From: Mycobacterium sp. UM_CSW
Lineage (GTDB): Bacteria > Actinomycetota > Actinomycetes > Mycobacteriales > Mycobacteriaceae
Direction: 5' to 3'
Assembly (NCBI RefSeq): GCF_000455205.1
Contig: NZ_AUWQ01000104.1
Span: 1-44,312, forward strand
DNA length: 44,312 nt
The notes under the pieces were generated by a model, which was not told where the DNA came from, searched no databases, and saw nothing but the letters and a program-made list of their open reading frames with translations. Positions 541 through 23,205 of this stretch are shown piece by piece. Numbering within the stretch: the first letter of the stretch is position 1; each line of letters opens with the position of its first letter. Made by a program: the position numbers and the translations under genes.

Positions 541-589
541 GCGGAAGACATGGACGCCGCGGAACTGGCGCCCGCCGACGCCGTCCCGA

Positions 590-1132
590 CTACGCGTGGG
601 GAATCGATATGCGGGCGTTCGTGTCCAGGTCGACGTCGAGGGCGTTGAGCATCAGCGCCAATCCGGACCACCGATTGATTAGCATCAGCACTTCAATGGT
701 CGCCTGGGTGCCCAACGCGTGGTGCACCTCGTCGAACAGTGACGCCGCCACTTTCTTGGTGGTCACCAGCTCGGTCGTCAGGCGCAGCACCGAAAGCTCG
801 CTGCCGTCAAACACATCGGCGCTCGTCTTCCACGCGGAACCCAGAGCCGCGATCTCCCGTGGACTGACACCCGCTTTGCTTGCCGCGGTCGTGTGCTGAC
901 CGATCTCGTAGGGCGATGTCATCAGGTAGGCCGTCCGCAGGATGACGAGCTCCCTCAGCCTCGGGCTGAGGGCGGGGCTGACCAAAGCGTTACGGCCGGC
1001 CACCATCCACCCGGTGAACATGTTTTTCGCGTTGGCAAGGGTCCGGTAGACGTTGAGGTTCCCCCTTTCGAGGGTGAGTCCGCGTGCTGCGGCCGTCATG
1101 TCCTCGGGCGCTACGTATTTGATTCGCGTCAT
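590..1132 (-). CDS. Carboxymuconolactone decarboxylase (CMD/AhpD-like) family protein, copy 1
   Basis: A 180-residue all-alpha protein of the CMD/AhpD superfamily. The core RLRELVILRTAYL (about 58-70) followed by YEIGQHTTAASKAGVS matches the conserved CMD helix. The Cys-x-x-Cys pair of peroxidatic AhpD proteins is absent (SPYEIGQH instead), which argues against alkylhydroperoxidase activity. A lactone decarboxylase or isomerase-like or unknown role in ring-fission product metabolism is more likely. It starts at ATG 12 nt after the stop of the preceding CMD gene (1145-1678) and is the last gene of the MDR-dioxygenase-CMD-CMD unit. A paralogue at 19067-19609 is about 83% identical by eye. Family is confident; reaction is inferred from context only. 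Confidence 0.85.
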   Translation of the reverse strand: MTRIKYVAPEDMTAAARGLTLERGNLNVYRTLANAKNMFTGWMVAGRNALVSPALSPRLRELVILRTAYLMTSPYEIGQHTTAASKAGVSPREIAALGSAWKTSADVFDGSELSVLRLTTELVTTKKVAASLFDEVHHALGTQATIEVLMLINRWSGLALMLNALDVDLDTNARISIPHA

Positions 1133-1144
1133 GGGAGTTCCCGT

Positions 1145-1678
1145 TCACACCCGTAACTGGGCTGTCTCATCGATGTCGAGTTCGACGGCGTTGACCACCA
1201 GGGCCAGGCCGTAGTAGCAGCTGATTACCATGAGCACCTCGGTCAGTGCCTCGTCGCCCAGGGCGCTTTGGGCGCGAGCGAAGCTTTGTGGCCGCACTCG
1301 ATGGGTGAGGCAGAGTTCGTTGACCACGTCGAGCACGGCGAGCTCGGTTGGGCTGAACCCGGCCACGCCGGCATCACCGTCGCCCACGAGAACATCGATC
1401 TGCCGGTCGTCGAGTCCGGCAGCGCGGCCAAGCCCCAAATGTTGGTTCAGCTCGTACGCCGACTGCTGCAGGTGCGCGACGCGAAGGATGATCAGTTCCC
1501 GCATTCGCGCGCCAAGCGTTGGGCTGCCCAGCATTTCATCGACCATCTGAGCCCACCCGATGAAGACCTCGGGCGCATTGGCGATCAACCGGAATACGTT
1601 CAGTTCACCGTGGCGGGTCATGAACTGACGAATCTCTTCCGGTTGATCGCCGACGCCGGCGAGAGGAACTCGCGACAT
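1145..1678 (-). CDS. Carboxymuconolactone decarboxylase (CMD/AhpD-like) family protein
   Basis: A 177-residue CMD-family protein, clearly related to the adjacent 180-residue copy but divergent. Shared landmarks are GELNVFRLIANAPEVFIGW near 24-42 and RMRELIILRVAHLQQSAYELNQH near 59-81. It also lacks Cys-x-x-Cys. ATG at 1676-1678 is preceded by an AAAGGGAC ribosome binding site. It sits 13 nt downstream of the intradiol dioxygenase, so it is almost certainly cotranscribed with it. In known catechol and protocatechuate pathways CMD proteins act after ring cleavage, which fits this position. The substrate is unknown, and the pair may form a heteromer; that is inference. Confidence 0.85.
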   Translation of the reverse strand: MSRVPLAGVGDQPEEIRQFMTRHGELNVFRLIANAPEVFIGWAQMVDEMLGSPTLGARMRELIILRVAHLQQSAYELNQHLGLGRAAGLDDRQIDVLVGDGDAGVAGFSPTELAVLDVVNELCLTHRVRPQSFARAQSALGDEALTEVLMVISCYYGLALVVNAVELDIDETAQLRV

Positions 1679-1691
1679 TCGCTCGTCCCTT

Positions 1692-2573
1692 TCAGTTCTG
1701 CTCGGTGTTCGGCGCGAGCCGGAAGGTCCACTGCAGGGTCACGAAGGGCTCGTCGACGCTGGTTCCGTCGGGCGCCACACCGGGCTCGTGCCGGACAAAG
1801 TCCGCCTCCAGCGAGTCCTGGGCCGCGAACACCGCATCGCGGTCGATGTACGGGTCGTCTCGCAGGAACAGCTGGGTGATCAGTGGGTGGTATCCCTCGG
1901 CATGGAACTGGAAATGGACATGCTGCGGTCGCATGATGGATCGGTCTGCGGCGCGCAGGATTTCGCCGCACGGACCGTCGGTCGGTACTGGGTAGTAGCG
2001 TGGCTCGATCGAGCGGTACCAGAATCGGCCGTCCGCGTCGGTGGTGAGCAGGGCTCGCATCGCCAAGTGGTTGTTCAGCTTGTCGAGCTGCTGAACGTCG
2101 TAGTATCCGTTGCCGTCGCTGTGCCAGGTGTCCACGAGGACGCCCGCGATCGGGTCACCATGCTCGTTGACGACTCGGCCGTCGACGAACATCGGTGTGC
2201 CCGCGACGCCGCCGGAGATGTCGGCGCCGTTGTCCACCTTGGGCCGGCCCTCGACGTAGAACGGACCGAGCAGGGCCGAGTCGGTGGCCGAGGAGCCATT
2301 GTGGTGGCTCATGATGTCGACCAGCATGCTCAGACCGAGGATGTCTGATAGCAGCACATACTCCTGCCGAGTGGGACCGGAGATCTTTCCGACCCGCTCG
2401 AGGAAATCCATTGCGGAGTACCATTCGTCGCCGGTCAGGCGGGTTTCGCGCGCGAAATCGTGCATATGAGCGATCAGGTGGACGAACAGCTCCTTGAAAC
2501 GGTCGTCCTTGGAGTTGTCGAAAGTCCGCTGAACGGCTTCGGTGATCGTTTCTTCGGTGTAGTTGATAGCCAT
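1692..2573 (-). CDS. Intradiol ring-cleavage dioxygenase (hydroxyquinol 1,2-dioxygenase-like)
   Basis: A 293-residue non-haem Fe(III) dioxygenase that opens ortho-dihydroxylated rings between the hydroxyls. The N-terminal dimerisation and helical domain (1-100) is followed by the beta-sandwich catalytic domain. The four expected iron ligands are visible: Tyr158 (DTWHSDGNGYYD), Tyr194 (RYYPVPTDGP), His218 and His220 (RPQHVHF). Length and N-terminus resemble hydroxyquinol/chlorocatechol 1,2-dioxygenases more than protocatechuate 3,4-dioxygenase. The frame is open further upstream, but ATG 2571-2573 has a strong CAAGGAGGG site 4-8 nt away and begins the family-like N-terminus. It lies between the MDR gene (40 nt upstream) and two CMD genes. 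The product would be a maleylacetate or muconate; the exact catechol is inferred. Confidence 0.9.
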   Translation of the reverse strand: MAINYTEETITEAVQRTFDNSKDDRFKELFVHLIAHMHDFARETRLTGDEWYSAMDFLERVGKISGPTRQEYVLLSDILGLSMLVDIMSHHNGSSATDSALLGPFYVEGRPKVDNGADISGGVAGTPMFVDGRVVNEHGDPIAGVLVDTWHSDGNGYYDVQQLDKLNNHLAMRALLTTDADGRFWYRSIEPRYYPVPTDGPCGEILRAADRSIMRPQHVHFQFHAEGYHPLITQLFLRDDPYIDRDAVFAAQDSLEADFVRHEPGVAPDGTSVDEPFVTLQWTFRLAPNTEQN

Positions 2574-2613
2574 TGTCCCTCCTTGGGTGTTCGGTGGCTG
2601 GGCCCCTGTCGGT

Positions 2614-3585
2614 TCAGGGGTGGATGACGATGCGACCGGCCGTATGGTCGGCGACGGCTTGATATGCCACGGCCCCCTTGTCGAGCGGATAGCTCGCGGT
2701 GATGGGCAGCGGCCGGAATTCCGACGATTCGAAATAGGAAGCGATGTGGGCCAGGCGACGCGCCGAGTCGACGACATCGAGTTTTCGGCTGTCCGCACCA
2801 AGAATCGAGGTCTCGTTGTGGTAGAGATCCCGCAGATTGATTTCCACCGTGCCGGAACCAACAGCGTTGATCACAACCAGCCTGCCTCGCCGTGCGAGAC
2901 AAGCCAGGGCGGCGGCGGTGGTGACCCCACCGACGGCGTCGTAGACGACCTCTGCGCCCTTGCCTCCGGTGAGCCGTTTGATCTCGCCCGCGACGTCGAC
3001 GGCCGGGTCGAGCTCAAGGAAGTGGTCGATGACCGCCGCCGCAGGAGTGTCGACTCCAGGCGGCCTGCGGTCCACTCCGATCACCGTTGCGTGGCGCGCG
3101 CGTCCGATTTGGGCAACCGCTCCTCCGACGCCGCCGGAAACGCCAAAGACAACAATGGTTTCGCCCTCGGATAGTTGCGCCGTCTCGACGGCGCCGTACC
3201 AGCCGACTACGAAGTTGACGCCGACGGTGGAGGCTTCGTCAAAAGTCAGTGACTCGGGTTTGGGGGCCAGTGCTTCAACCGGCACGGACATGAGTTCGGC
3301 GTGCGAGCCGTCACGAGTGAATCCGACGTCTCCGCCGGTGCCCCAGACCGCAACGCCTTGCCAGTGCTTCGGTCCGCTGACGACCACCCCGGCGTAGTCG
3401 CGTCCGGGTATGCGCGGCAGTACCGTGCCTTCCATCGTGCCGGCGACGTTCTTTACGTCGGACGGGTTCACCGATGCCGCCGACACGCGCACGACCGCTT
3501 CCTGCGCCGTCGCCACGGGGTCCGGCACATCGGCGAGCTGCAGGACGTCGGGGGCGCCGAACTGCTCGAAACGCAACGCACGCAT
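2614..3585 (-). CDS. MDR-superfamily NAD(P)-dependent oxidoreductase, quinone-reductase-like
   Basis: A 323-residue medium-chain dehydrogenase/reductase. The N-terminal GroES-like domain includes VSAASVNPSDVKN and IPGRDYAGVV. The Rossmann domain starts at VVFGVSGGVGGAVAQIGRA (about 145-163), followed by VIGVDRR. No structural or catalytic zinc cysteines are seen, placing it with zinc-independent quinone reductase/enoyl reductase-like members. ATG at 3583-3585 has a GGGAGG site 8 nt upstream. It is the first gene of the unit that continues into the dioxygenase and CMD genes, so reduction of a quinone or an unsaturated ring-fission intermediate is a reasonable but unproven role. Confidence 0.85.
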   Translation of the reverse strand: MRALRFEQFGAPDVLQLADVPDPVATAQEAVVRVSAASVNPSDVKNVAGTMEGTVLPRIPGRDYAGVVVSGPKHWQGVAVWGTGGDVGFTRDGSHAELMSVPVEALAPKPESLTFDEASTVGVNFVVGWYGAVETAQLSEGETIVVFGVSGGVGGAVAQIGRARHATVIGVDRRPPGVDTPAAAVIDHFLELDPAVDVAGEIKRLTGGKGAEVVYDAVGGVTTAAALACLARRGRLVVINAVGSGTVEINLRDLYHNETSILGADSRKLDVVDSARRLAHIASYFESSEFRPLPITASYPLDKGAVAYQAVADHTAGRIVIHP

Positions 3586-3646
3586 TGCTACGACCTCCCT
3601 TGATTCATTCGCACCGGGGGCGGGTGGCGGACGAGAGCCCTTTGGC

Positions 3647-3693
3647 GCGCCGTGGGCTGCAAGGGATTTGCGTCCTTTGCAGCGCCACGGCGC
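3647..3693 (-). terminator. Long stem-loop between isochorismatase-like gene and MDR gene
   Basis: The left arm starting GCGCCGTGGGCTGCAAGG (3647-3664) pairs with the right arm CCTTTGCAGCGCCACGGCGC (3674-3693), interrupted by one or two bulges. The loop is about 9 nt. It follows the stop of the gene at 3723-4388 and precedes the MDR start, so it probably ends the amidohydrolase-isochorismatase transcript. There is no clear U-tract, which is common in mycobacteria. A role as an attenuator of the downstream unit is also possible. Confidence 0.6.
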
Positions 3694-3722
3694 ATGAAAT
3701 TGGCTCGAACGAGGCCACTCGG

Positions 3723-4388
3723 TTAGCTGGCGTGGACGCCGACGAAGTCGTTGGCGTAGTACAGGCCTTGGCCGTACACCCCGCCGCGCTGCCGCATGAG
3801 ATCGCCCACTTGGTCGTACGTCTGGAGGCGGGCCCAGTCGCGTTGCAGCTCGAGCAGTACCTGGATCCAGGTGACGGGGTACGCGCCGGCTTGGATCATG
3901 CGTTCCATCGCATGCTGATGCGCGGCGGGCGTGAATCCGCCGGACGCATCGGCCACGACATAGACCTCGAAGCCTTGCTCAAGAGCGGACAGCGCCGGAA
4001 GGACCACACAGACCTCGGTCCACAGACCCGACAGGACGAGCTTGCGCCGGCCCGTGGCCTTAATCGCCTCCACGACCGCGCTGTCTTCCCAGGGGTTCAT
4101 CGTGGTGCGGTCGAGGATCGGGTGATCGGGGAACTCCGCGTGCAGCTGCGGCATCAGATGTCCGGCGAAGGTATCGGCGGCGACGGTCGTCAAGATGACT
4201 GGGACATTGAAGATCTTGGCCGCCCTGCCCAAACCTACCGCCGCGTTGATGATCGACGTGCGGTCGTCACTGCCGGTCGCGAAGAACATCTGCGGCTGAT
4301 GGTCGGCGAACACGAACACCGAATTGTCCGGTGTCAATAGTGCTTTGCCGGGCGTCGGGGTGGCCTGGCTGATGGTGGAGATGGACAC
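3723..4388 (-). CDS. Isochorismatase-like cysteine hydrolase (YcaC-type)
   Basis: A 221-residue alpha/beta hydrolase of the isochorismatase superfamily. Asp29 (FVFADHQ) and Cys127 (LSGLWTEVCV) match two residues of the catalytic Asp-Lys-Cys triad. The stretch DRTTMNPWED (93-102) is typical of the YcaC-like branch, whose physiological substrates are mostly unknown. The start is GTG at 4386-4388 with AAAGGAA upstream. It follows the amidohydrolase by 62 nt and probably shares its transcript. Both are C-N hydrolase-type families, suggesting sequential removal of amide or carbamoyl groups before ring processing; this is inference from neighbourhood. Confidence 0.85.
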   Translation of the reverse strand: MSISTISQATPTPGKALLTPDNSVFVFADHQPQMFFATGSDDRTSIINAAVGLGRAAKIFNVPVILTTVAADTFAGHLMPQLHAEFPDHPILDRTTMNPWEDSAVVEAIKATGRRKLVLSGLWTEVCVVLPALSALEQGFEVYVVADASGGFTPAAHQHAMERMIQAGAYPVTWIQVLLELQRDWARLQTYDQVGDLMRQRGGVYGQGLYYANDFVGVHAS

Positions 4389-4450
4389 TGTGGTTCCTTT
4401 CTTTTCTGTTGACGTTTCCGAACGCCAAAGTCCTGCGAGCAGTGGTGGTG

Positions 4451-6346
4451 TCAGTGTCGGTGCGTTTCGAAGGTGTCGGCCGCCGCGACGGCAAGCTGTT
4501 CGCCGCGCCGGGACCGCCAGGCAGCTTCCGCGCGGGAATCCAGGGCCGCGTCAACGAGCGCGGCGGCTTGCGCGGCGCCGCGCCGGCTGGGCGGCGGGGT
4601 GGCGTAGTAGCCGCCGAAGCGGGCAACGGGGCTCCACGCCGGTTCGATTGGTTGCAGCGACTGGTCGAGGCCTTCGAATTCGGCTGTGGCGTAAACCACT
4701 TCGCCGCCGACCATGGTGAGCACCGCTTCGATGTGGGGGATGTCTGACTCCTCGACGGCGAAATAGTCGTCGGTTAAGACGGCCAGGTCGGCGAGGTAGC
4801 CGGGCCGCAAGATTCCCTTGGTGTCGGCTTCACCGCTGAGCGTGGCGCCGGCGACGGTATACCGCTCGAGCGCCTCCTCGCGGGTGAGGCGATTCTCGAC
4901 CGGATAGAGGATGGTGTTTCCCAAGGTGCGCCCACTGATCATCCAGTGCAACGCCACCCACGGGTTGTAAGAAGACACGCGCGTTGCGTCCGTGCCGGCG
5001 GCGACGGTCAAACCGGCGGACAGCATGGCCCGCAACGGTGGACTGCTCTGTGCCGCGGTGGTGCCGTACCGGGAAACGAACGCCTCTCCCTGGAAAGACA
5101 TTCGGTTCTGTACCGAGACGGCGCCGCCGAGGGCGACGATACGCTCGATACTGCTCTGGCTGACCGTTTCGGCATGGTCGAAGAACCATCGGCCCGGCCC
5201 GGGAAAAAGGCCCTCGGCGGAGAGTTTTTCGAACACCGCGAGGTCGCGCTGGATCGTCTCGTCATAGGTTGCGTGCAACCGGAATCCCCAGCCGTGTTCG
5301 CACAGCAGGCGCACCGCTTTCTCAAACTCCTGTTCGTAGTCTTCGGCCAACTCCGGGCGTGGTTCGCTGAAGTTCTCGAAATCTCCTGCGGCCCAGGTGA
5401 GATTCTCGCCGGCACCGTTCAGTCGCAGGTACTCGTCACCATCACCGGGGGTCACCGTCTGGACCCACCGCTGGATGTCGGCCACCTCCTGGCCGCCGAC
5501 TTGCGGGAACAGATGGTAGGCGATGCGCATGGTCAGCTGATTGCGCTCGGCGAGCGTGCGAACGGCGGCGTAGTTCTCGGGGAAGTTCTGGAAACCGCCG
5601 GCTGCGTCGATCGCCGATGTCAAACCGAAGCGGTTGAGCTCACGCAGGTAGTGCCGCGTGGAAAGCAACTGTTCGTCGGGATCGAGATTCGGCGCCTTCG
5701 CGAGGGTGAGGTAAAGAAGTGTCGCTGCCGGGGCTGCGAGCAGCATGCCCGTCGGCTCACCGTCGCGACCGCGAACGATCTTCCCGCCGTTGGGATCCGG
5801 AGTGCTCTTGGTGTAGCCCGACGCACGGACGGCCGCGCGGTTCATCAACGCGGACTGATACAGGTTAAGCACGAACACCGGCGTGTCGGGCGCCGCGTCG
5901 TTCAGTTCGTGCAGGGTGGGGAGCCGGCGCTCGACGAACTGTTCCTTGCAGAATCCGCCCACGACGCGCACCCAGTGCCCGGCGGGTGTGGCGGCGGCCT
6001 GGTCGCGCAGCATCTGCAGCGCGAGTGCTAGGGATGGAACGCCGTCCCAACGCAATTCGAGCACGTAGTTGAGCCCGCCGCGGATCACGTGCAGGTGCGA
6101 GTCGTTCAGTCCCGGGATGACCCGCCTCCCTTGCACATCGATGACGGACGTCGATTCGCCAACACAGGACAGAATCGTTGCGTCGTCCCCGACGTCTGTG
6201 ACATGCCCATTTGTGATGGCAAGGGCCGACGCGTGCGGCAGGGCAGGATCCCCCGTGTAGATCTTGCCGTTGCGCAATACAACGTCGGCCGGCTGGCCGA
6301 CCGGGCGTGGCGCCGGTTGAATGCCTTGTACGGGCATCGAACTCAT
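4451..6346 (-). CDS. Metal-dependent amidohydrolase, YtcJ-like
   Basis: A 631-residue amidohydrolase-superfamily (TIM-barrel) protein. The N-terminal beta-sandwich stretch ADVVLRNGKIYTGDP is followed by the metal-binding motif IPGLNDSHLHV (His84, His86). Further conserved segments are RLHATYDETIQRDL, FFDHAE, and AAGTDATRVSSYNPW with the catalytic-type Asp near the C-terminus. Closing elements GILRPGYLADLAVL are typical of YtcJ/NfdA-like proteins that hydrolyse N-substituted amides or formamides. The frame extends 18 codons upstream, but ATG 6344-6346 has GGAGGT 6 nt away and fits the family N-terminus. It heads its own unit (337-nt upstream gap). Substrate unknown. Confidence 0.88.
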   Translation of the reverse strand: MSSMPVQGIQPAPRPVGQPADVVLRNGKIYTGDPALPHASALAITNGHVTDVGDDATILSCVGESTSVIDVQGRRVIPGLNDSHLHVIRGGLNYVLELRWDGVPSLALALQMLRDQAAATPAGHWVRVVGGFCKEQFVERRLPTLHELNDAAPDTPVFVLNLYQSALMNRAAVRASGYTKSTPDPNGGKIVRGRDGEPTGMLLAAPAATLLYLTLAKAPNLDPDEQLLSTRHYLRELNRFGLTSAIDAAGGFQNFPENYAAVRTLAERNQLTMRIAYHLFPQVGGQEVADIQRWVQTVTPGDGDEYLRLNGAGENLTWAAGDFENFSEPRPELAEDYEQEFEKAVRLLCEHGWGFRLHATYDETIQRDLAVFEKLSAEGLFPGPGRWFFDHAETVSQSSIERIVALGGAVSVQNRMSFQGEAFVSRYGTTAAQSSPPLRAMLSAGLTVAAGTDATRVSSYNPWVALHWMISGRTLGNTILYPVENRLTREEALERYTVAGATLSGEADTKGILRPGYLADLAVLTDDYFAVEESDIPHIEAVLTMVGGEVVYATAEFEGLDQSLQPIEPAWSPVARFGGYYATPPPSRRGAAQAAALVDAALDSRAEAAWRSRRGEQLAVAAADTFETHRH

Positions 6347-6683
6347 GGCATTACCTCCAATTAGTGCGGCTCCGCGCCCACCTGGTGGGCCTTCGCGCAA
6401 GACAACTCTCGCTCATATGCGTGTGGCGGACCATCGCACGCTGGGTGATCTTTTATGGCGGTTCGGGGGATGCTTGAGGGGTGTGCTCCTCCCCCGAGGT
6501 GCCCCGCGGGCGCGCGGCAAATCCGCGAATACCATTGCTGCATAACGATTCCTGGCCGACGGATGCCGATTATTTCATTCAGACCGGATGGACGTCTGGC
6601 CGACCCGATTGCATAGGCGGGTGTCGACGGTGTCGCGGCCGCGCCCTCGCGTCGAACTGTCTGCCTGCGAAGGCTGTCGCGAC
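6347..6683 (-). promoter_or_regulatory. Intergenic control region upstream of the amidohydrolase, with a repeated 12-bp element
   Basis: The 337-nt gap between the LLM oxidoreductase and the amidohydrolase holds no convincing gene. On the minus strand it contains AAGCATCCCCCG (plus-strand 6464-6475), about 118 bp upstream of the amidohydrolase start. The same element, AAACATCCCCCG, lies 103 bp upstream of the UbiX-like gene. The A+T-rich ATAAAAGATC follows. The arrangement suggests a promoter with a binding site shared by both units. No -10 or -35 can be assigned with confidence. Confidence 0.4.
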
Positions 6684-7697
6684 CTACCGTCGGGCGGACG
6701 GACGCACGGCTGACATGAAAGCCTCCAATTCCCGTGCGATGTCGGGACCTGAAGGTTCGAAGATAATTTCGGTGGCGCCGGCTTCGGCCATCGCGGCAAC
6801 GGCCTTGCGCACCGTTTCGGCGGGTCCCGTCAGCGTGGTCGCCGGAATCGACGCATAACCACCGGCATGCCACGCTGCCAGGTCCGCGTCGTTCATCTCC
6901 ACCATATGGCCCTGGTGAACGGACAGATGCCGCACACGTTCTGGCACCTTCTCGATCACGTCGAGCCACGCGGTCCCGCCGGGCATCTCCCATACGGCCT
7001 CAGCACCTTTGACGGTGTACGTGTAATGCAGGCCCGCCGCCCATGGGGCGCCGACCGCCGCGCGGACTCGTTCGGCCGCCAGATCTTCCCCGTCGTCGAG
7101 TACGGTGCCCATCGTCGCCACCGCTGCCCGCGGGAACTCGCGCTGCCCGGGGACCACGTTGAACATGGACATGAGACCATCGGCACCCAGTCGCTTCGCG
7201 ACCCCGGCACCCTTGGGTCCGATAGCCGCGATCAGCAACGGTATTCGCAACGGCAGGATGCCCGCGGCACCGGAGGTGAGCATCAGCTTCACGGGCGCTC
7301 CCTCCCACTCGACGACTTCCCCGGCCAACAGCGCCTGGTACGCCCGGACGTAGGCCTCCATGTAAGACCACCGGACCGGAGGTTGACCGATCGCCGCCCG
7401 GCTGGAGAACCCGGTGCCGAACGACGTCACGACCCGGCCGGGCGCCCACCGATGCAGGGATGCCGTCTGCGCAGCGTTCACCAGCGGGTGTCGCTGCGTC
7501 GGAATCAGCACTGCCGGCCCGAGTTCGATCGTCGTGGTGAGCTCGGCCGCTCGGTGTAAGTCCACCCAGACGTCATCGCCTTCGAACGGCGTGTCGTACA
7601 GGTAGGCCGCGCGGTACCCGAGCCCTTCCGCCGTGGCAATGTGCTGCGCCGCCTCGTACGAGGGCGGCAACGCCATGCTCACATCGATGTCGGTCAT
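6684..7697 (-). CDS. LLM-class flavin-dependent oxidoreductase (bacterial luciferase fold)
   Basis: A 337-residue TIM-barrel protein of the luciferase-like monooxygenase family, using FMN or F420. Family features are a beta strand followed by AEGLGYRAAYLYDTPF, PAVLIPTQRHPLVNAAQTASLHR, GRVVTSFGTGFSSR, LIAAIGPKGAGVAKRLGADG and the C-terminal GATEIIFEP. ATG at 7695-7697 has AAAGG about 8 nt upstream and lies 2 nt after the esterase stop at 7700, so translation is probably coupled. It is the last gene of the UbiX-UbiD-esterase-LLM unit. A hydroxylation or reductive step on the aromatic substrate is plausible; cofactor choice cannot be read from the sequence. Confidence 0.85.
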   Translation of the reverse strand: MTDIDVSMALPPSYEAAQHIATAEGLGYRAAYLYDTPFEGDDVWVDLHRAAELTTTIELGPAVLIPTQRHPLVNAAQTASLHRWAPGRVVTSFGTGFSSRAAIGQPPVRWSYMEAYVRAYQALLAGEVVEWEGAPVKLMLTSGAAGILPLRIPLLIAAIGPKGAGVAKRLGADGLMSMFNVVPGQREFPRAAVATMGTVLDDGEDLAAERVRAAVGAPWAAGLHYTYTVKGAEAVWEMPGGTAWLDVIEKVPERVRHLSVHQGHMVEMNDADLAAWHAGGYASIPATTLTGPAETVRKAVAAMAEAGATEIIFEPSGPDIARELEAFMSAVRPSARR

Positions 7698-7699
7698 CG

Positions 7700-8686
7700 C
7701 TACGCCTTTCTGATCGCGTTCGGTTGTACTGCGGCCTCGGTGCGGTGGAAGGCCTGACGCAACACGGCGACGGCCTGTCGTATCGCCGCTGTCGAGGCGG
7801 CCGTTCCTCGCAACGCGTTCAGCATCATGAAATCGTGGATGGTCGCGTTGTAGCGGACACTTGTGCAGCGCACTCCCGCGGCGCTCAGCTTGCGGGCGTA
7901 GGCTTCGCCTTCGTCACGCAGCGCGTCGCATTCGGCCACCACGACGAATGCCTCCGGCAGCCCCACTAGTTCTTTGACGGCGGCCCGCAATGGCGACGCG
8001 AGCACCTCATTTCGGCGGTCCCGATCAGGAAGGTAGGCGTCCCAGAACCACGCCATGGCCTTCGCGGTCAGATGCGGGCCGTCGCTGAATTCGCAATAGC
8101 TGGCTGTGTTTTGCGCCGCATCGGTCACCGGGTAGAACAGCAACTGGCGGACGAAGGTGACGTCGCCGCGGCGGTGGGCCAGGATGGCCAGAGCCGCAGC
8201 GAGATTACCGCCAGCAGAGTCCCCGGCGACCGCCATTCGGGTGGCATCGAGGTTCGCGCTCGCGCCGTGACGGCAGACCCACCGCGCGGCGGCATAGGCT
8301 TGCTCGATGGTTTCGGGGTAACGCACCTCCGGCGCGCGGTCGTAATCGACGAACACGACCGCCGCGTCGGCGCCGACCGACAACTCCCGCACCAGGCGAT
8401 CGTGAGTCGCGGCGCTGCCCAGCACCCACCCCCCGCCGTGCAAGTAGAGCACGACGGGCAAGAGGCCCACGGCGCCAAGCGGTTTGACGATACGAAGGGG
8501 AACCTCGGTGCCGCGGACCACGACGGGCGTCCACGAGCTGTCGACATCTGGCTTGTCAACCGGCGCCGACTGGACCTCCTCCAGGCCGGCGCGCGCCGCA
8601 TCGGGAGTGAGCTCGTACACCTGGGGCGAGCGGGCGGCAGCCGCGGCGAACTCGGCCGCAGCCCTTTCAAGGGCATACTCGGTCAC
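7700..8686 (-). CDS. Alpha/beta hydrolase, hormone-sensitive-lipase (HSL) type esterase
   Basis: A 328-residue carboxylesterase. The oxyanion-hole motif HGGGW is at 83-87 and the nucleophile elbow GDSAGG at 155-160 (Ser157), both hallmarks of the HSL/family IV group. VAECDALRDEGEAYA provides the acid and TIHDFMML the histidine. The start is GTG at 8684-8686, with only a weak GAGAGAG upstream. It is 24 nt downstream of the UbiD-like gene. It probably frees an aromatic acid or alcohol from an ester before or alongside decarboxylation; the pairing is inferred from the operon, not from sequence detail. Confidence 0.88.
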   Translation of the reverse strand: MTEYALERAAAEFAAAAARSPQVYELTPDAARAGLEEVQSAPVDKPDVDSSWTPVVVRGTEVPLRIVKPLGAVGLLPVVLYLHGGGWVLGSAATHDRLVRELSVGADAAVVFVDYDRAPEVRYPETIEQAYAAARWVCRHGASANLDATRMAVAGDSAGGNLAAALAILAHRRGDVTFVRQLLFYPVTDAAQNTASYCEFSDGPHLTAKAMAWFWDAYLPDRDRRNEVLASPLRAAVKELVGLPEAFVVVAECDALRDEGEAYARKLSAAGVRCTSVRYNATIHDFMMLNALRGTAASTAAIRQAVAVLRQAFHRTEAAVQPNAIRKA

Positions 8687-8710
8687 GGGGATGGCTCTCT
8701 CGGGTGACGA

Positions 8711-10303
8711 TCAGACCTCGGATAGCCGCTTACTCAGCTCTTCCATGGTGAGCAGGTTCCGCTGGTCATCGTTGAGGTAGGGGATCCCTATCCCGTACTC
8801 GGCCCACCGGTCGGCAACGCGGGACTCCAGTTGCGGATGGATCTTGTCGATCGGCGGGAAGTGCCGACCGCCCCACTCGGGCCGAGGTTCGAATTCCCAG
8901 CTGCGGGTGGCGTCGATCAGCACCCGGTGCCATTCCCCCGCACCGTATTTGGCCGCATCGTTCTTGGCTGGTGCGGTGGACGGGTCCAGCGGCGAGCCCA
9001 TCGATGGCCCATAGACGTGGATGTCGCCGACCCCGGCGTTCACCCGATACGACATTGCCCAGTCCAGCGCGACCGGGTCGTGGATGTCGACGTCTTCCTC
9101 CACGACCATCACGTTCTTGTGAAACCAGACCGCTCCACCGGTACCCCACAAGGCGGCGGCAATCTGCTGCGCATGACCTCGGTAGTTCTTGTGGATCTGA
9201 ACGTTCGTGTTTTGGCCGTTGCTGACCTCCGTCATCCATAAATCGGTGATGCCGCCGATTCCGAGGTCGTCGAGCGTGTTCCAGGTGATGGCCGAGCGCG
9301 CGAAATTGGTGATGCTGTCTTCGTTGTAGAAGCCGGGGCGGATTCCCTCGAGGGTGCCACGCAACACCGGGTCGTTGCGATGGGTGATCCGCGTGACCTT
9401 GAGAACGGGGTTCGGTGCGGCGCCCCCGATGAAGCCGGGGTATTCGGCAAACGGGCCTTCCATTTCGAAAGTGGCGGGGTCGGGGTCGATGAAGCCTTCC
9501 ACGACGATCTCAGCGCTCGCGGGTACAAGCAACGGCACCGTTTCGCAGGGCACCAAATCGACGGGGCGGCCCAGCAGCGCGCCCATCATGTCCCATTCGC
9601 ACACGGCTTTCGGGAACGGGCTGCCCGCGCAAAATCCGAGCACGTCGTGCCATCCGTAGACGACGGCGACCGGCATGGGCTCGGGTTTGTACTCAGACAT
9701 GTGGCCGCCCCAACCCTGGCTGGGCACCAGTAATTTCGCTATTTTGTCGCGGCCGACGATCATGCCGCGGTAGCAGCCGATGTTTTCGCGTCCGGTGTAC
9801 TTGTCCTGGGTGACCACACCGCAGAACGTGTCGATGTAGCGTCCGCCGTCCTCGCCATGCCACTTGGGCGCCGGAAATTGGAACAGGTCGATGTCGTCGC
9901 CTTCGAGGATGTTCTCCTTGACCGGCCCGGTCTCGACCACGCGGGGCAGGATCGGCTTCTTGAACGCCTCCCGCAGGTGACGCACGATGGCCGAGTCGCC
10001 GGTCCCTTCGGGTAGCCCCAGCATTAGCTGGACCTGGCGCCGATTGCCGATTGCGGATGTCAAAAGCTTGGTGCCTCGGGTGTTTTCATGCCCGATGATA
10101 TTTTCGAAGAGTAGCGCCGGACCGCCGAGGGCGAGGTTCGCGCGGGTGATCGCGCCGATCTCCTCGTTCCAGTCCACGGGGACGGTGACTCGTGCCAATT
10201 GGCCGGCGGCCTCCAGCGTCGCAATCCAACTGCGCTGGTCGGGCCCCGGGTCCTGGCCGTTCTGTGCCGCCGAGGTGTCCGTCAGTTCCGTTCCCGTGCT
10301 CAT
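8711..10303 (-). CDS. UbiD-family (prenylated-FMN-dependent) decarboxylase
   Basis: A 530-residue UbiD-type decarboxylase using prenyl-FMN made by the UbiX-like enzyme encoded 59 nt upstream. Catalytic-region motifs are ENIGCYRGMIVG (active-site Arg), EGPFAEYPGF (the conserved Glu pair of the Glu-Arg-Glu triad) and ITHRNDPVLRGT. The N-terminal WIATLEAAGQLARVTVPVDW is also typical. ATG 10301-10303 has GAGGAGC 5-6 nt upstream. UbiD enzymes catalyse reversible (de)carboxylation of aromatic, heteroaromatic or acrylic acids; the sequence alone does not tell which. Placement next to an intradiol dioxygenase cluster favours a hydroxybenzoate-like or heteroaromatic acid. Confidence 0.92.
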   Translation of the reverse strand: MSTGTELTDTSAAQNGQDPGPDQRSWIATLEAAGQLARVTVPVDWNEEIGAITRANLALGGPALLFENIIGHENTRGTKLLTSAIGNRRQVQLMLGLPEGTGDSAIVRHLREAFKKPILPRVVETGPVKENILEGDDIDLFQFPAPKWHGEDGGRYIDTFCGVVTQDKYTGRENIGCYRGMIVGRDKIAKLLVPSQGWGGHMSEYKPEPMPVAVVYGWHDVLGFCAGSPFPKAVCEWDMMGALLGRPVDLVPCETVPLLVPASAEIVVEGFIDPDPATFEMEGPFAEYPGFIGGAAPNPVLKVTRITHRNDPVLRGTLEGIRPGFYNEDSITNFARSAITWNTLDDLGIGGITDLWMTEVSNGQNTNVQIHKNYRGHAQQIAAALWGTGGAVWFHKNVMVVEEDVDIHDPVALDWAMSYRVNAGVGDIHVYGPSMGSPLDPSTAPAKNDAAKYGAGEWHRVLIDATRSWEFEPRPEWGGRHFPPIDKIHPQLESRVADRWAEYGIGIPYLNDDQRNLLTMEELSKRLSEV

Positions 10304-10362
10304 GTCGTGCTCCTCATTGGGGTAAATCTTTTTGTCTTACGGTTCTCGACGGTTGGCCGCGT

Positions 10363-11007
10363 TCACGGCCGGGTCGAAATCGATTCCAGTTCTGCGAGTA
10401 GCTCGTTGGCGTCCTTAAGTTGTTTGCCGCCGTTCGTTTCGACTGGCCGCTGATCGTCTTTCCAGCGGCTGATTAGACTGTGGTCGATCCCGAGCTGATC
10501 GACGACCCGGCCCACCACGTAGTCGGTGACCTCCGTGACCGATGTTGGCCGCGAGTAATAGGCCACCGTCGGGGGGAAGATCACGACCCCAAGGGTTGCC
10601 AGATAGTGCATGTTGTCCAGATGAATGGGGCTCAAGGGCGCCTCCCGCGCAACCAGCACCAGTCGGCGGCGTTCCTTGAGCGTCACATCGGCAGCCCGAG
10701 TGATCAGATTGTCGCTATATCCGACCCGGATAGCGCTCAACGTCTTCATGCTGCAAGGGCACACGACCATCCCATCTGTGCGGAACGAGCCACTCGAGAT
10801 GGCTGCCGCCAGATCGCGGGCGCTGTAGACGTGTGAGGCCAGCGCCCGCACTGCATCGACGCTGACGTCGGTTTCCAGCTTGATCGTGGCCCGGGCCCAG
10901 TCACTGAGGATGAGATGGGTCTCGACGCCCAGTTGCCCGAGAACCTCCAGCAGACGAACGCCGAGAGCGGCGCCCGTCGCGCCCGTAATCGCGACCACTA
11001 AACGCAT
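10363..11007 (-). CDS. UbiX-like flavin prenyltransferase
   Basis: A 214-residue flavoprotein that prenylates FMN to give the UbiD cofactor. The N-terminus VVAITGATGAALGVRLLEVL carries the FMN-binding Gly-Ala-Thr-Gly loop. Later conserved stretches are GMVVCPCSMKTLSAIRVGYSDNLITRAADV, LKERRRLVLVAREAPLS and GVVIFPPTVAYYSRP. The last ~25 residues (QRPVETNGGKQLKDANELL) extend slightly beyond the usual core. ATG 11005-11007 has GAGGAGGA 5 nt upstream. As the first gene of the unit, its promoter region (11008 onward) probably controls UbiX-UbiD-esterase-LLM expression. Confidence 0.92.
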   Translation of the reverse strand: MRLVVAITGATGAALGVRLLEVLGQLGVETHLILSDWARATIKLETDVSVDAVRALASHVYSARDLAAAISSGSFRTDGMVVCPCSMKTLSAIRVGYSDNLITRAADVTLKERRRLVLVAREAPLSPIHLDNMHYLATLGVVIFPPTVAYYSRPTSVTEVTDYVVGRVVDQLGIDHSLISRWKDDQRPVETNGGKQLKDANELLAELESISTRP

Positions 11008-11347
11008 GCGTCCTCCTCGGAGCCGGAAAGCGCTGAATTAGGTTCTCGGTGAAACGCGTCTTGGCTCCACTAACTGTCACACGCTCGTCTGTGCCCTGCC
11101 ATCACCCGCCGGGGGATGTTTACGCGGACCGAGAGGGATGAACTAAGCACCGACAACTCTGCGCAGCGACCCAGCGACTACTTTTTCGCAGGAGCAGCTA
11201 GCTAGTAGCTGTCGGGACCTGTGAGAAAGCGCCACCCGGCGGCAAACGGCGTTGGCAAATCCCTACCAACCTCAACGTCGCCCGTGATACAACCGCCAGC
11301 AGCACCCGACACACCAACAGCTCAAGACTCGACGGAACGGACAAATC
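11008..11347 (-). promoter_or_regulatory. Upstream region of the UbiX-UbiD unit, with 12-bp element at 11110-11121
   Basis: About 340 nt without a convincing gene. On the minus strand AAACATCCCCCG (11110-11121) lies 103 bp before the UbiX-like start. It differs at one base from the copy upstream of the amidohydrolase (6464-6475). The remainder up to 11347 may hold the 5' end of a decayed plus-strand gene. No regulator gene is adjacent, so a site for a distant regulator is the simplest guess. Confidence 0.4.
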
Positions 11348-11816: not shown

Positions 11817-11987
11817 CACCTAGCTCTTTGCTGCATCTCGGCAGCAGCAGCCCAGCTACGTAATCACCCTCCCCGGGCTGGACGACCGTGACCACGGTTT
11901 CACCCGCACCGGCCATGCGACCCACCTCCCGGACCTGTTTATACCGGTTTTCGACTTACGCGGGCACGCCGCCTGTTTCCCGCCCCG

Positions 11988-12473
11988 TCACCCCGAGAAC
12001 ACGGGCACGGTGATGCCGACCGCAGCGTTTTCGTCCGGCGTCGCCAGCCGGTAGCCGTACCGCCCCGCAACCTCGACGAAGCGCGCCACCTCTCGGGCGG
12101 TCGGTGGCGGCGAGCTCACCGGCCGGCCTACCTCGCGAAAAAATCTGCCCATGCGCGCCGTCGTGATGATCAGGTCGACTGCGGGTTCCTGCGAGACGTT
12201 GCGGTGCGCGTGCGGGACGTCGCCCGGCACCCGGACGTAATCTCCGGCGTGGGCATCGCGCCATTGAAGGCCGCCAGCTCCCTCGGCAAGCACCTGGTGG
12301 CTGCCCGCCAGGATGTAGAAATCCTCGAAGTCGTTGTGGCTGTGCAGTGGGACCACCACCCCGGGTGGGATGACCGCGCGCATGACGCAGAACTGCTCTT
12401 CCTCGGGCGGAGTCATGAACTCCACGACGGGTCCGAAGACTTCGACCGCTTCCGCAATGTTGGTTGTTGTCAC
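11988..12473 (-). CDS. Cupin-domain protein
   Basis: A 161-residue single-cupin protein. Motif 1 is PLHSHNDFEDFYILAG, giving the His-x-His-x(4)-Glu-type metal ligands. Motif 2 is GDYVRVPGDVPHAHRN. Small cupins of this type include dioxygenases, isomerases and sensors, so the reaction is undetermined. The start is GTG at 12471-12473 with TGAGGAC 6 nt upstream; longer starts in the same frame have no family-like sequence. It is the last of three co-oriented genes (HD, nitroreductase, cupin) and lies 43 nt from the nitroreductase stop. Confidence 0.8.
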   Translation of the reverse strand: MTTTNIAEAVEVFGPVVEFMTPPEEEQFCVMRAVIPPGVVVPLHSHNDFEDFYILAGSHQVLAEGAGGLQWRDAHAGDYVRVPGDVPHAHRNVSQEPAVDLIITTARMGRFFREVGRPVSSPPPTAREVARFVEVAGRYGYRLATPDENAAVGITVPVFSG

Positions 12474-12516
12474 GCTGTCCTCACGGTCCAGGCGACGGAA
12501 CGGTTCGGCCGCCGCA

Positions 12517-13221
12517 CTATCCGACCGCGGCCAATCCGGCTGTCGGCGCCTCTTGAGGCGACCACAGCGGCTCCGGCACCTCGACACCGAACGGCGCATC
12601 CCAGTGGTTGCGGGACGAAACCTCGTGCACGGGGCGGCGATTGGCGGCCACGCCCCACTTGCCCAGGGGATAGCCGAGGGTCAGCATGGCCGACATCTTC
12701 CAGCCCTCCTCGACGGGCACGCCCAGCATCTCGTTCACCTTGTCGCGGAAATTGTTGAGCACCATCGTCATGACGCCGCCGACGCCCTCGGCCCGGGCGG
12801 CGAGCAGGGCGCTCCAGATCGCGGGGTAGATGTTGGCGCCGCCAAGATCGTCGATCGCGAACACGAAGAGCAACAGGGGAACCTCGTCGAAGTGGTCGGC
12901 CAGGTAGTTGCCGGAGCCCTTGATCCGGCGCATCGTCTCGGCGTGAGCGGCGAGGTCCGCGCCGGGCCCCGGCACCACCATCGGTCCCTGCCCCGTGCTG
13001 AACTTCTCGTATTCGAGGGCGCGGGCCTGCCGGAACAGTTCGCCGAACTCGTGGATGAGTTGTGGATCGTCGACGGCGACAAAGTGCCAGCGTTGGGTGT
13101 TGCCGCCGTTGGGTGCCCGCACGGCCGCATCGAGAATGCGGGCCTGCACGTCCAGCGGGACCGGGTCCGGCCGCAACCGCCGCATCATCCTGGTGGTGTA
13201 CAGCGCCTCGTGGATTTCCAT
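12517..13221 (-). CDS. Nitroreductase-family FMN oxidoreductase
   Basis: A 234-residue FMN-dependent NAD(P)H oxidoreductase of the nitroreductase superfamily. Characteristic parts are YTTRMMRRLRPDPVP (phosphate-binding Arg-Arg), AAVRAPNGGNTQRWHFVAV, SALLAARAEGVGGVMTMV and the C-terminal GYPLGKWG followed by Arg/Pro residues. ATG at 13219-13221 is chosen because the GGGAG site lies about 8-12 nt upstream; an in-frame ATG 6 codons earlier (13239) overlaps the HD gene stop. It is 17 nt after the HD-domain gene, so these are cotranscribed. Substrates might be quinones, nitroaromatics or enones; none is indicated by sequence. Confidence 0.85.
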   Translation of the reverse strand: MEIHEALYTTRMMRRLRPDPVPLDVQARILDAAVRAPNGGNTQRWHFVAVDDPQLIHEFGELFRQARALEYEKFSTGQGPMVVPGPGADLAAHAETMRRIKGSGNYLADHFDEVPLLLFVFAIDDLGGANIYPAIWSALLAARAEGVGGVMTMVLNNFRDKVNEMLGVPVEEGWKMSAMLTLGYPLGKWGVAANRRPVHEVSSRNHWDAPFGVEVPEPLWSPQEAPTAGLAAVG

Positions 13222-13238
13222 TTGTCCGCTCCCTTCCA

Positions 13239-13889
13239 TTATTCGGGCCAATTGCTGTTGAGAACGAAGTCGACCATGTTCCCCGGCTTGAACGTGGGGT
13301 CGAAGTGCGCCAGCACGTCGGCGTTCATCGTCCCGAAAGTCGTGTCGGGGCGATGCTTCATGCCGTCGTTGAAGGCCGCCAGGATGCGGTTCTTGAAGTC
13401 CGGACGGGGATGGGCGGCGGTCACCGCGTCGACCGCTTCCGGGTCCAGGGCCTCGAGCCCCGCGCCGACCACGTCGGTCTTGACACCGGCTGCCAGCAAA
13501 GCGGTTACGGGGTCGAGGCGCGCGGGAACCTCGGGCGTCGAGTGCAGGGCGATGCCGAGCCAAACCTTGTCGGCGTCGGCCTGTCCGACGCCGTGCTCGA
13601 GCAGGAACTCACACGCCGCGTCGGCGCCGTCCATCTCGAAGCGCTGGGTCGACGTGCCGTAGCGCCCGGTGAGGCCCAGGTCGTGGAACATCGCGCCCAC
13701 GTACAGCAGCTCCGGGTCGGGCGAAAGGCCGAGCCGGAGCCCGTGCAGCGCGCCGAACAGGAACACCCGCCGTGAATGGTGGAAGAGGACGTCGTCTTCG
13801 ACGCTTCGGATGAAGTCGGTGGCGTCCCGGGCGACGGCGGTGTCGGGGATGACGATGCCGGCTATGGTCTCGATGGACTGGATTACCAT
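13239..13889 (-). CDS. HD-domain phosphohydrolase-like protein, copy 1
   Basis: A 216-residue HD-superfamily protein. The metal-site motif is present as HSRRVFLFGAL (about 38-48), then LLYVGAMFHDLGLT with the His-Asp doublet. A later WLGIALHSTPEVP and AAHPRPDFKNRILAAF are strongly conserved in its paralogue. ATG 13887-13889 is preceded by AAAGGAGA. The paralogue at 15120-15770 has exactly the same length and is about two-thirds identical by eye, and a third decayed copy lies at 15900-16235. HD proteins hydrolyse phosphate esters or nucleotides; related small HD proteins also include nitrile/cyanamide hydratase-like enzymes, so function is open. First gene of the HD-nitroreductase-cupin unit. 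Confidence 0.85.
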   Translation of the reverse strand: MVIQSIETIAGIVIPDTAVARDATDFIRSVEDDVLFHHSRRVFLFGALHGLRLGLSPDPELLYVGAMFHDLGLTGRYGTSTQRFEMDGADAACEFLLEHGVGQADADKVWLGIALHSTPEVPARLDPVTALLAAGVKTDVVGAGLEALDPEAVDAVTAAHPRPDFKNRILAAFNDGMKHRPDTTFGTMNADVLAHFDPTFKPGNMVDFVLNSNWPE

Positions 13890-13957
13890 GACCGCTTCTC
13901 CTTTGTGGACTAGGTCCATCTTCCGGCGCCGAGCGGCCATTCACCGGTGCCGTTCGT

Positions 13958-13981: not shown

Positions 13982-14007
13982 GTCGGCGGCGGTATTCAGG
14001 CGGCCGG

Positions 14008-14706
14008 TCAAGCGGCGAGGATTGCCGTGGCGACCTCGTCGGGGTGGGTCAGCAATCCATTGTGCGTCCCGGGTACCACGACGGGCCGGACCCCGATCCG
14101 GGCGGCGGATTCGGCCGCCGGCCGCGGCATCGCCACATCGTCGGCGCCGGTGATGTAGGCCATCGGAATGCCGAGATCGGCCGCGCCGATGTCGAGGGCG
14201 CCAAGGAAGTAGCCGCCGGGCTGGAGCGTCAACAGATCGGCCACCAACCGCTGTAGGTCGGGCGAGACGCCTTGCATCAACTCCCGCTCGAGGTATGCCC
14301 TGGTCGCCCGGACGGCGCCCACCGGCGATTCCCTGATCGACCGCAGCGCCGACAGGCGCTGGTCGGGCGGGTTCTCGTCGATCAGTGACCGGCCGCGAAG
14401 CGGCACATGCCCGTTGTAGTAGACGAGTTTGTCGACACGCCCGGCCAGCACCCGCGCGGCGCCGGTGGCGGGAAAGCCGCCCCAACTGTGTGCGACCAAG
14501 ACGACGTTGCCCGCTGTCAGCCGTCGAACCTCCTGGGCAATGTGTTCGATCGCGTCTCGTAATTGGTACCCGGAAGGGTCGTCGCCGTCGTTCATTCCGG
14601 GCAGCGTCAGGGTGATAGCCCGGTGGCCCGCCGCGCGAAGCCGCTCGGCGACCGGTCGCCAGGACCACGCTCCATGCCAGGCGCCGGGGACCAGCACATA
14701 CGTCAC
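14008..14706 (-). CDS. Alpha/beta hydrolase (EstC/salicylate-esterase-like)
   Basis: A 232-residue compact alpha/beta hydrolase. The N-terminus VLVPGAWHGAWSWRPVAERL contains the oxyanion-loop sequence typical of EstC- and methylketone/salicylate-esterase-like plant and bacterial enzymes. The nucleophile elbow is VLVAHSWGGFPATG (Ser73). The acid is in YITGADDVAMPRP and the histidine in VVPGTHNGLLTHPDEVA. The start GTG 14704-14706 overlaps the TGA of the upstream FAD-oxidoreductase remnant as GTGA, so the two were once translationally coupled. With that partner broken, expression now depends on the remaining leader. Substrate unknown. Confidence 0.85.
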   Translation of the reverse strand: MTYVLVPGAWHGAWSWRPVAERLRAAGHRAITLTLPGMNDGDDPSGYQLRDAIEHIAQEVRRLTAGNVVLVAHSWGGFPATGAARVLAGRVDKLVYYNGHVPLRGRSLIDENPPDQRLSALRSIRESPVGAVRATRAYLERELMQGVSPDLQRLVADLLTLQPGGYFLGALDIGAADLGIPMAYITGADDVAMPRPAAESAARIGVRPVVVPGTHNGLLTHPDEVATAILAA

Positions 14707-15031: not shown

Positions 15032-15072
15032 GCTGCCTCCTTGATTTCACCGACGGAACATTGCTGGCGTGG

Positions 15073-15119: not shown

Positions 15120-15770
15120 CTATTCGGGCCAGGTGTTGCCCAGAATGATGTCGACGAAGTTGTCGCGGGCGAACGTCGGGTCGAAGCGCTCGAGCACATC
15201 GGCGTTGACTGTGCCGAACGTGCTGTGCGGGCGGTGCTTCATGCCGTCGTTGAAGGCGGCCAGGATGCGGTTCTTGAAGTCCGGCCGGGGATGGGCGGCG
15301 GTGACGGCGGCGAGCGCGTCGGGCGACAGGTCGTCGCGGCCGATGCCCAGGACGTCGGTTTCGACACCCGCTGTGACCAAGGCGATTTCGGGCTCGAGGA
15401 ACTCGGGGATGCCGGGCGTGGTGTGCAGGGCGATGCCCAGCCACACCTTGTGGGCATCGGCCTCGTCGACGCCGTGCTGCAGCAGGAAATCGCGCGCCGC
15501 GTTGGCGCTGTCCACCTCGAAGCGCAGGGTGGACGTGCGGTAGCGCTCGGTCAGGCCGATGTCGTGAAACATCGCGCCGGCGTAGAGCAGTTCCAGGTCC
15601 GGTTGCAGCCCCCGGCGGCGGCCCTGCAGCGCGCCGAACAGGAAGACCCGGCGGGAATGGTCGAAGAGCAGATCGTCTTCGGCGTCGCGAATGTACTCGG
15701 TGACCTCGCGCACTAGCGGGGTGTCGGGTACGACGATGTCGGCGATGGTTTCCATCGGCTGAGTAAACAT
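15120..15770 (-). CDS. HD-domain phosphohydrolase-like protein, copy 2
   Basis: A 216-residue paralogue of the HD protein at 13239-13889. It conserves HSRRVFLFGAL, LLYAGAMFHDIGLTERY (His-Asp doublet), KVWLGIALHTTP and an identical AAHPRPDFKNRILAAFNDGMKHRP block. ATG 15768-15770 has AAAAGGAGA about 7 nt upstream. It appears to be transcribed alone: a perfect hairpin follows at 15073-15100. It shares the 24-bp upstream element with copy 1, so both are probably controlled together. Strong conservation of the C-terminal block suggests a substrate or partner interface. Biochemical role unknown. Confidence 0.85.
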   Translation of the reverse strand: MFTQPMETIADIVVPDTPLVREVTEYIRDAEDDLLFDHSRRVFLFGALQGRRRGLQPDLELLYAGAMFHDIGLTERYRTSTLRFEVDSANAARDFLLQHGVDEADAHKVWLGIALHTTPGIPEFLEPEIALVTAGVETDVLGIGRDDLSPDALAAVTAAHPRPDFKNRILAAFNDGMKHRPHSTFGTVNADVLERFDPTFARDNFVDIILGNTWPE

Positions 15771-15837
15771 GATCGCGTCTCCTTTTGTCTTGGGCTCATT
15801 CTGAGGCGATGCGCGAGTGCGCAACCGCGTCATATCA

Positions 15838-15861
15838 GCCATCTATCCCACAGAATCCGAC
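15838..15861 (-). promoter_or_regulatory. 24-bp conserved upstream element, HD copy 2
   Basis: Minus strand GTCGGATTCTGTGGGA followed by TAGATGGC, matching the copy at 13958-13981 in 22 of 24 positions, with the near edge 68 bp from the start codon. The spacing is the same as in copy 1 within one base. Confidence 0.55.
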
Positions 15862-23198: not shown

Positions 23199-23205
23199 TT
23201 TGCTC

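Follow-up and report, generated by a model that had tools for sequence, protein, structure and literature searches.

A ten-gene run of Mycobacterium sp. UM_CSW probably joins a resident UbiX/UbiD decarboxylase locus to a variant aromatic-ring ortho-cleavage cassette

The window analysed here, i.e. the complete contig NZ_AUWQ01000104.1 (44,312 nt) of Mycobacterium sp. UM_CSW (assembly GCF_000455205.1), carries at positions 590–11007 ten minus-strand open reading frames (ORFs), all of which were assigned to a Pfam family above the gathering cut-off (10/10; Table 1). One part of the run, hereafter set A, comprises ubiX, ubiD, an esterase gene and a gene of the luciferase-like monooxygenase family (LLM), with nitroreductase, HD-domain and DJ-1/AraC-type genes further upstream. 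The other, set B, encodes a YtcJ-like amidohydrolase, a YcaC-like hydrolase of the isochorismatase family, a dehydrogenase of the quinone-oxidoreductase/enoyl-reductase kind (MDR), an intradiol dioxygenase and two proteins of the carboxymuconolactone-decarboxylase family (CMD2 and CMD1). The gaps between the ten genes measure 2–137 bp, with the sole exception of that between the LLM and amidohydrolase genes. Because these genes travel as two separate sets in relatives, the comparative sequence evidence makes it probable that the run is a composite of two neighbouring gene sets rather than one new ten-gene pathway.

Table 1. Features of the ten-gene run and its surroundings in the window
Feature	Position	Strand	Evidence
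CMD1, carboxymuconolactone-decarboxylase family	590..1132	-	PF02627 E 8.7e-11; YExxxH motif, no CxxC
CMD2, second CMD-family protein	1145..1678	-	PF02627 E 3.3e-10
Intradiol dioxygenase, hydroxyquinol type	1692..2573	-	Dioxygenase_N/C, PF00775/PF04444; best solved relative 1tmx
MDR, quinone-oxidoreductase/enoyl-reductase-like dehydrogenase	2614..3585	-	ADH_N/ADH_zinc_N, PF00107, PF08240; best solved relative 1yb5
YcaC-like isochorismatase-family cysteine hydrolase	3723..4388	-	PF00857 E 4e-30; Asp29, Cys127; 1yac
YtcJ-like amidohydrolase (Amidohydro_3)	4451..6346	-	PF07969 E 1.3e-115; HxH 84/86, His358, His391, Asp453
337-bp gap between LLM and amidohydrolase genes; resident set ends, cassette begins	6347..6683	.	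gap lengths, set membership
LLM, luciferase-like monooxygenase-family oxidoreductase	6684..7697	-	Bac_luciferase PF00296
Esterase (EST), alpha/beta hydrolase, HSL/LipP1-like	7700..8686	-	Abhydrolase_3 PF07859 E 1.7e-71; NF058653 288.5 bits, cut-off 350
UbiD-family decarboxylase, dependent on prenylated FMN (prFMN)	8711..10303	-	TIGR00148; three UbiD domains (Pfam)
UbiX-family flavin prenyltransferase	10363..11007	-	TIGR00421 263 bits, cut-off 108.9; Flavoprotein (Pfam)
Cupin-domain protein, upstream of the ten-gene run	11988..12527	-	PF07883
Nitroreductase-family protein, recurrent in ubiX-ubiD surroundings	12517..13233	-	PF00881
HD-domain protein, cyanamide-hydratase kind	13239..13940	-	PF01966; TIGR03401 50.5 bits, below cut-off 109.85
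Alpha/beta hydrolase	14008..14706	-	PF12697
HD-domain protein, paralogue of 13239-13940	15120..15842	-	PF01966
PE gene, after the same-strand run	16500-18152	opposite to ten-gene run	
DJ-1/AraC-type regulator, candidate regulator of set A	19832..20806	+	FtrA-like NF006902 247.4 bits, cut-off 425

The dioxygenase, with its start set at the ATG at 2573 (AGGAGG lies upstream, and the mechanical ORF, which extends to 2861, overlaps the MDR gene), retains all four Fe ligands, Tyr158, Tyr194, His218 and His220. UbiD possesses Arg179 and an EGPFAE motif with Glu282 and Glu287, which align with the motifs of 7pda and 6h6v, and like UbiX it clears its family cut-off (TIGR00148, 258.4 bits vs 244.85). 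The catalytic residues of the amidohydrolase (start set at 6346, mechanical ORF to 6400) and of the YcaC-like hydrolase are each invariant in 4 aligned rows; the best solved relative of the latter is YcaC (E 2.1e-40), and its score lies below the YcaC cut-off NF041461 (151 of 310 bits). Thus far the analysis bears out the original prediction, which had named ten genes facing one way, their identities, the four iron ligands, and a UbiD with Arg/Glu motifs and a UbiX partner. The MDR is most similar among solved proteins to a quinone oxidoreductase (E 2.6e-31) and belongs to the quinone-oxidoreductase/enoyl-reductase kind, thus its likely chemistry, as far as family membership can tell, is to reduce either a quinone or a C=C bond. 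A CxxC redox pair is the mark of AhpD-type peroxidases in the CMD family; it is absent from both CMD1 and CMD2 of the window as well as from the aligned stretch of their relatives, which has YExxxH. The solved relatives of CMD1 are too weak to suggest a function (best E 0.0013).

Set A was compared with 27 other mycobacterial ubiD loci (16: L021–L033, L036, L063 and L068; 11: L119–L129), a set that is not exhaustive, in which the same species may recur and whose stretches reach at most ~10 kb on each side. ubiX adjoins ubiD in 26 of them (the exception is L125), an LLM gene lies downstream of ubiD in 8, and an esterase gene stands next to it in 5 (a 56% esterase match 3 kb off in L068 was not counted). 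Genes for a DJ-1/AraC relative (18 loci), an HD protein (19) and a nitroreductase (11) recur nearby, and all three occur in the window outside the ten genes. The loci L029, L119 and L129 exhibit the order UPF0182 - AraC - HD - nitroreductase - ubiX - ubiD, which is also that of the window, where extra genes lie in between; set A therefore probably occupies its old place. Matches to the dioxygenase, MDR, CMD, isochorismatase-family and amidohydrolase genes were absent from the fetched stretches of all 27 loci. Set A, whose ubiD has counterparts in 17 of 198 genomes of the genus (E <= 1e-100), is probably a resident mycobacterial prFMN-decarboxylase locus.

Several side observations concern ubiD loci. 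The UbiD relatives in L125 (genome G077), which lacks a ubiX match, and in L129 (G120) contain an internal stop or break, a sign that the resident set may be in decay in some species. In L022 and L063 a DsbA/FrnE-like gene is found, by eye, between the esterase and LLM genes (2 bp apart in the window), with an SDR-like gene and an oxidoreductase gene after LLM. In L126 (G083), also by eye, ubiX-ubiD stands behind PaaA/C-like, SDR and acyl ligase-like genes and is followed by a transposase-like gene; the same contig carries, at a distance of ~52 kb, a canonical dioxygenase gene adjoining one for maleylacetate reductase (L117). L067, an incomplete stretch from a contig labelled as an Acidobacteriaceae metagenome-assembled genome, encodes a UbiD 84% identical to that of the window; it is probably a misbinned mycobacterial contig and was excluded from the 27 loci. 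Finally, each of L045–L059, mostly alphaproteobacterial, has at least 2 UbiD matches close together.

Turning to set B, the best solved relative of the dioxygenase is the hydroxyquinol 1,2-dioxygenase 1tmx (E 1.2e-67), and 1tmx, 3n9t, 8r2v, 8r2x and 8r2w all rank above any catechol enzyme. A tree of 32 intradiol dioxygenases places the enzyme of the window in a clade of 14 rows (support 100/100), separate from 1tmx and from the remaining rows. This clade is present in 24 of 396 sampled genomes of the genus (E <= 1e-100), and both CMD genes follow the dioxygenase gene in 20 of the 24 loci, the window included, one of them in 3, and none in L195. The MDR gene adjoins it in 16 loci and lies nearby in L131, while a divergent LysR gene accompanies it in 9; the fetched stretches L100, L192 and L200 are among those that end at a contig edge. 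The amidohydrolase is far rarer, detected (E <= 1e-80) in 2 of the 396 genomes, that of UM_CSW and G233. In G233 all six genes of set B lie within 7.7 kb, with CMD1-CMD2-dioxygenase on one strand and, divergently, genes for a SnoaL-like protein (by eye), maleylacetate reductase (E 2.3e-104 vs 3hl0), the amidohydrolase, the isochorismatase-family hydrolase and MDR (79%, 65% and 71% identical to the window proteins, respectively). With a base rate of the dioxygenase clade of 23/395 in other genomes, its mere presence in G233 is mild evidence, and the strong part is the span of six genes within 7.7 kb. A probability of 0.0035, calculated for the clade being present by chance in both genomes with the amidohydrolase, was discarded, since the own genome counts by construction. 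On the sequence evidence, the six genes of set B constitute a single cassette that occurs in two arrangements. G609, a more distantly related actinobacterium, encodes an amidohydrolase of 39% identity; orthologues of MDR (66%) and of the dioxygenase (69%) lie ~2.5 kb from it, and a divergent LysR gene is also present.

The two sets are distributed independently. ubiD stands beside a clade dioxygenase gene only in the window (0 of the 23 other dioxygenase loci of the genus), and it was not found in G233 at E <= 1e-20. Among the 24 dioxygenase genomes it is present in 2, namely the own genome and G240, where it lies on another contig than the dioxygenase gene (thresholds 1e-100, 1e-20 and 1e-60), which is near the general rate of 17/198. 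The first sample of 198 genomes contains ubiD 17 times and a full-length dioxygenase 11 times (partial matches in G059 and G089 were not counted), and the single genome with both is the own one, present by construction and thus biasing the test, against 0.94 expected; with this genome removed, 0 are shared against 0.8 expected (16 x 10 / 197). The original prediction of one ten-gene pathway including UbiD does not agree with these counts. It had regarded a scattering of the genes in relatives as speaking against such a pathway, and ubiX-ubiD-esterase-LLM are indeed found apart from the other six genes; those six keep together in G233.

What might set B do? It is best read, from its gene content, as a variant hydroxyquinol-type ortho-cleavage cassette, because the dioxygenase clade adjoins MDR (16/24 loci) while canonical loci adjoin maleylacetate reductase. 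For the dioxygenase, ortho-cleavage of a polyhydroxylated ring, as suggested in the original prediction, is supported as the probable reaction. For comparison, 13 canonical actinobacterial dioxygenase loci were selected among the hits (L109–L118 and L169–L171): 11 of them have a maleylacetate reductase gene within ~1.5 kb (the exceptions are L113 and L171) and none has MDR beside the dioxygenase (L171 has a 25% match 6 kb away). Maleylacetate reductase was found at full length in one of the 24 clade genomes (G233) and as a 96-residue fragment in G148, a fragmented draft; in the other 22 none was found. It had been noted as missing from the ten-gene cluster of the window, and the search confirmed this and recovered none from the whole own draft genome either (E <= 1e-6). 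The same search recovered the enzyme in G233 and in G609 (beside the canonical dioxygenase of the latter), therefore its lack in the own genome is meaningful. The idea that MDR may take the place of maleylacetate reductase, one of the options put forward before from the window itself, gains from the conservation of MDR as a neighbour of the dioxygenase.

In the proposed scheme, UbiX would make prenylated FMN, with which UbiD would decarboxylate an aromatic or heteroaromatic acid; the esterase may free this acid and the LLM enzyme may carry out a redox step on it. In set B, the two hydrolases would act on an amide, ester or lactam and so set free a polyhydroxylated ring, which the Fe(III) dioxygenase would open between two hydroxyls. 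MDR could act as a quinone reductase that keeps an easily oxidised triol reduced, or it could reduce the C=C bond of a maleylacetate-like product instead of maleylacetate reductase, and the CMD proteins may finish the product by decarboxylation or isomerisation.

Several observations weigh against the interpretation given above. Maleylacetate reductase and MDR coexist in G233, a point against MDR being a mere substitute for the former, and 7 of the 24 clade loci show no MDR gene within the sequence fetched. The ten genes of the window run in one direction, with gaps of only 2–137 bp inside each set, thus one transcript is possible. The union of the two sets is seen in one genome only. Finally, in two Rhodocyclales loci (L034 and L042) genes for UbiDs of 61% and 63% identity come immediately after a short intradiol dioxygenase gene, which belongs to another subfamily and is not orthologous. 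This pattern was found in 2 of 59 loci searched (48 + 11); for L035, a third close relative, upstream sequence is nearly lacking. A scan of 500–12100 for promoters and terminators remained at background (0 promoters, 2.0 in shuffles; 8 terminators, 8.2 in shuffles) and revealed nothing at the junction.

Within the composite interpretation it is a real possibility, if short of probable, that the substrate of set B is not hydroxyquinol but e.g. pyrogallol or a substituted catechol, with MDR and the CMD proteins handling a product other than maleylacetate. All 14 clade rows have L/L/V in place of V107, F108 and I199 of 1tmx, residues which we take to line the pocket, and the clade has a conserved Cys in GPCGE. 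The scarcity of maleylacetate reductase in the clade genomes points the same way, and so does the presence of two CMD genes; we know of no hydroxyquinol route with such a pair. On the other hand, maleylacetate reductase lies inside the very same cassette in G233, the closest solved relatives are hydroxyquinol dioxygenases, and the substitutions are not all peculiar to the clade, as L at 108 is also found in several canonical rows, and L118 has V at 199. Or perhaps MDR-dioxygenase-CMD2-CMD1 constitutes an ortho-cleavage operon of actinobacteria not described so far, in which MDR serves for maleylacetate reductase (or acts on another triol) and which is coupled here to the resident prFMN decarboxylase in a new route from carboxylate to ring cleavage? 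This we put forward only tentatively, as rather doubtful.

A single pathway across the run, in which UbiD would turn an aromatic acid set free by the hydrolases into a catechol, pyrogallol or hydroxyquinol by decarboxylation, for the dioxygenase to cleave its ring, so that the union of older sets would be a new working route, is in our judgement unlikely. The common strand, the adjacency of the genes and their intact active sites are consistent with it, and the Rhodocyclales loci, which make the chemistry plausible, are the strongest reason to think that joining the two sets here could be useful: by analogy, a route from UbiD to ortho-cleavage may exist for this group of UbiDs. Against it stand the 27 other mycobacterial ubiD loci, none of which has the dioxygenase, the co-occurrence of the two sets at the level of chance, and the G233 cassette without ubiD. 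Even less credible, indeed very improbable, is an assembly error joining two places of the genome between the LLM and amidohydrolase genes: the junction occurs in 1 of 396 genomes, and the draft consists of 186 contigs, of which the window is one in full, but the junction is interior to this 44-kb contig, has no repeat of at least 20 nt at 6347–6683 (within 1–16500), and is flanked by DNA of similar base composition.

Two further candidates were rejected. A mobile element at the junction was dropped on the same lack of repeats, and a horizontal origin of set B could not be read from composition, as there is no contrast between its genes (GC 0.626–0.657, GC at third codon positions 0.753–0.838) and those of set A (0.620–0.677 and 0.749–0.815). 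In the Rhodocyclales loci the row (1052–5435 in L034, 8455–12852 in L042) consists of an SDR gene, the short intradiol dioxygenase gene (with a signal-like start, by eye), ubiD and a gene for a branched-chain-type substrate-binding protein.

As to the neighbourhood, the same-strand run extends past the ten genes to 15842 with the cupin, nitroreductase, HD, alpha/beta hydrolase and second HD genes. The two HD paralogues share a 300-nt stretch that is 76% alike, at a spacing of 1881, and a common 33-nt stretch just upstream; a tandem duplication that included the leader is therefore likely. Solved relatives of the HD protein are only weak (best E 0.00079). Beyond the AraC gene, the minus strand at 21867–25672 carries genes for a Berberine-bridge-like FAD oxidase and a TPP-dependent enzyme as well as a regulator-like ORF (by eye). 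The window contains neither Rfam families nor tRNA genes.

If the interpretation of a composite holds, mycobacteria would possess a common ring-cleavage operon (24/396 sampled genomes of the genus) that is overlooked by the usual marker, maleylacetate reductase, as well as a little-known prFMN-decarboxylase locus whose substrate might be found via its conserved neighbours. It would also caution that a pathway inferred from adjacency in a single genome can mislead. Among the matches listed in a search of the open-licence literature, we recognised no paper describing such a gene cluster.

Compared with known systems, set B most resembles the hydroxyquinol 1,2-dioxygenase/maleylacetate reductase route (1tmx, PnpC 3n9t; 3hl0), with which it shares the dioxygenase family, the Fe ligands and the equivalent of Arg218, as well as, in the G233 cassette, maleylacetate reductase itself. 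It differs in that the window enzyme belongs to its own clade with L/L/V and is accompanied by MDR and two CMD genes in place of the canonical maleylacetate reductase. Plasmids of Streptomyces and Acinetobacter (L133 and L136) encode a YcaC-like hydrolase and a YtcJ-like amidohydrolase close together on one strand, as in the window, but these stretches contain no relative of the window dioxygenase. For set A, PMC13040415 describes PhdA as a mycobacterial UbiD engaged in phenazine-1-carboxylate degradation in Mycolicibacterium fortuitum; its gene forms an operon of three together with phdB and phdC, the latter encoding a maturase. The likeness to PhdA-PhdB-PhdC consists in a mycobacterial UbiD plus a UbiX partner (PMC13040415); unlike that system with its flavin-reductase-like PhdC, the window shows no flavin-reductase-type Pfam domain in the 15 genes scanned at 590–15842, PhdC itself not having been used as a query. 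The non-oxidative hydroxyarylic acid decarboxylase components VdcB and VdcC are the best NCBIfam match of UbiX and the second best of UbiD, respectively, with scores below the cut-offs (267.8 of 290 and 237.6 of 650). In yeast, a gallate decarboxylase is reportedly paired with a catechol dioxygenase. This system, whose catechol dioxygenase is treated in PMC9204233, resembles the route of the original prediction in that an aromatic acid is first decarboxylated and the ring then opened by intradiol cleavage, and differs from it in that the enzymes are those of a yeast.

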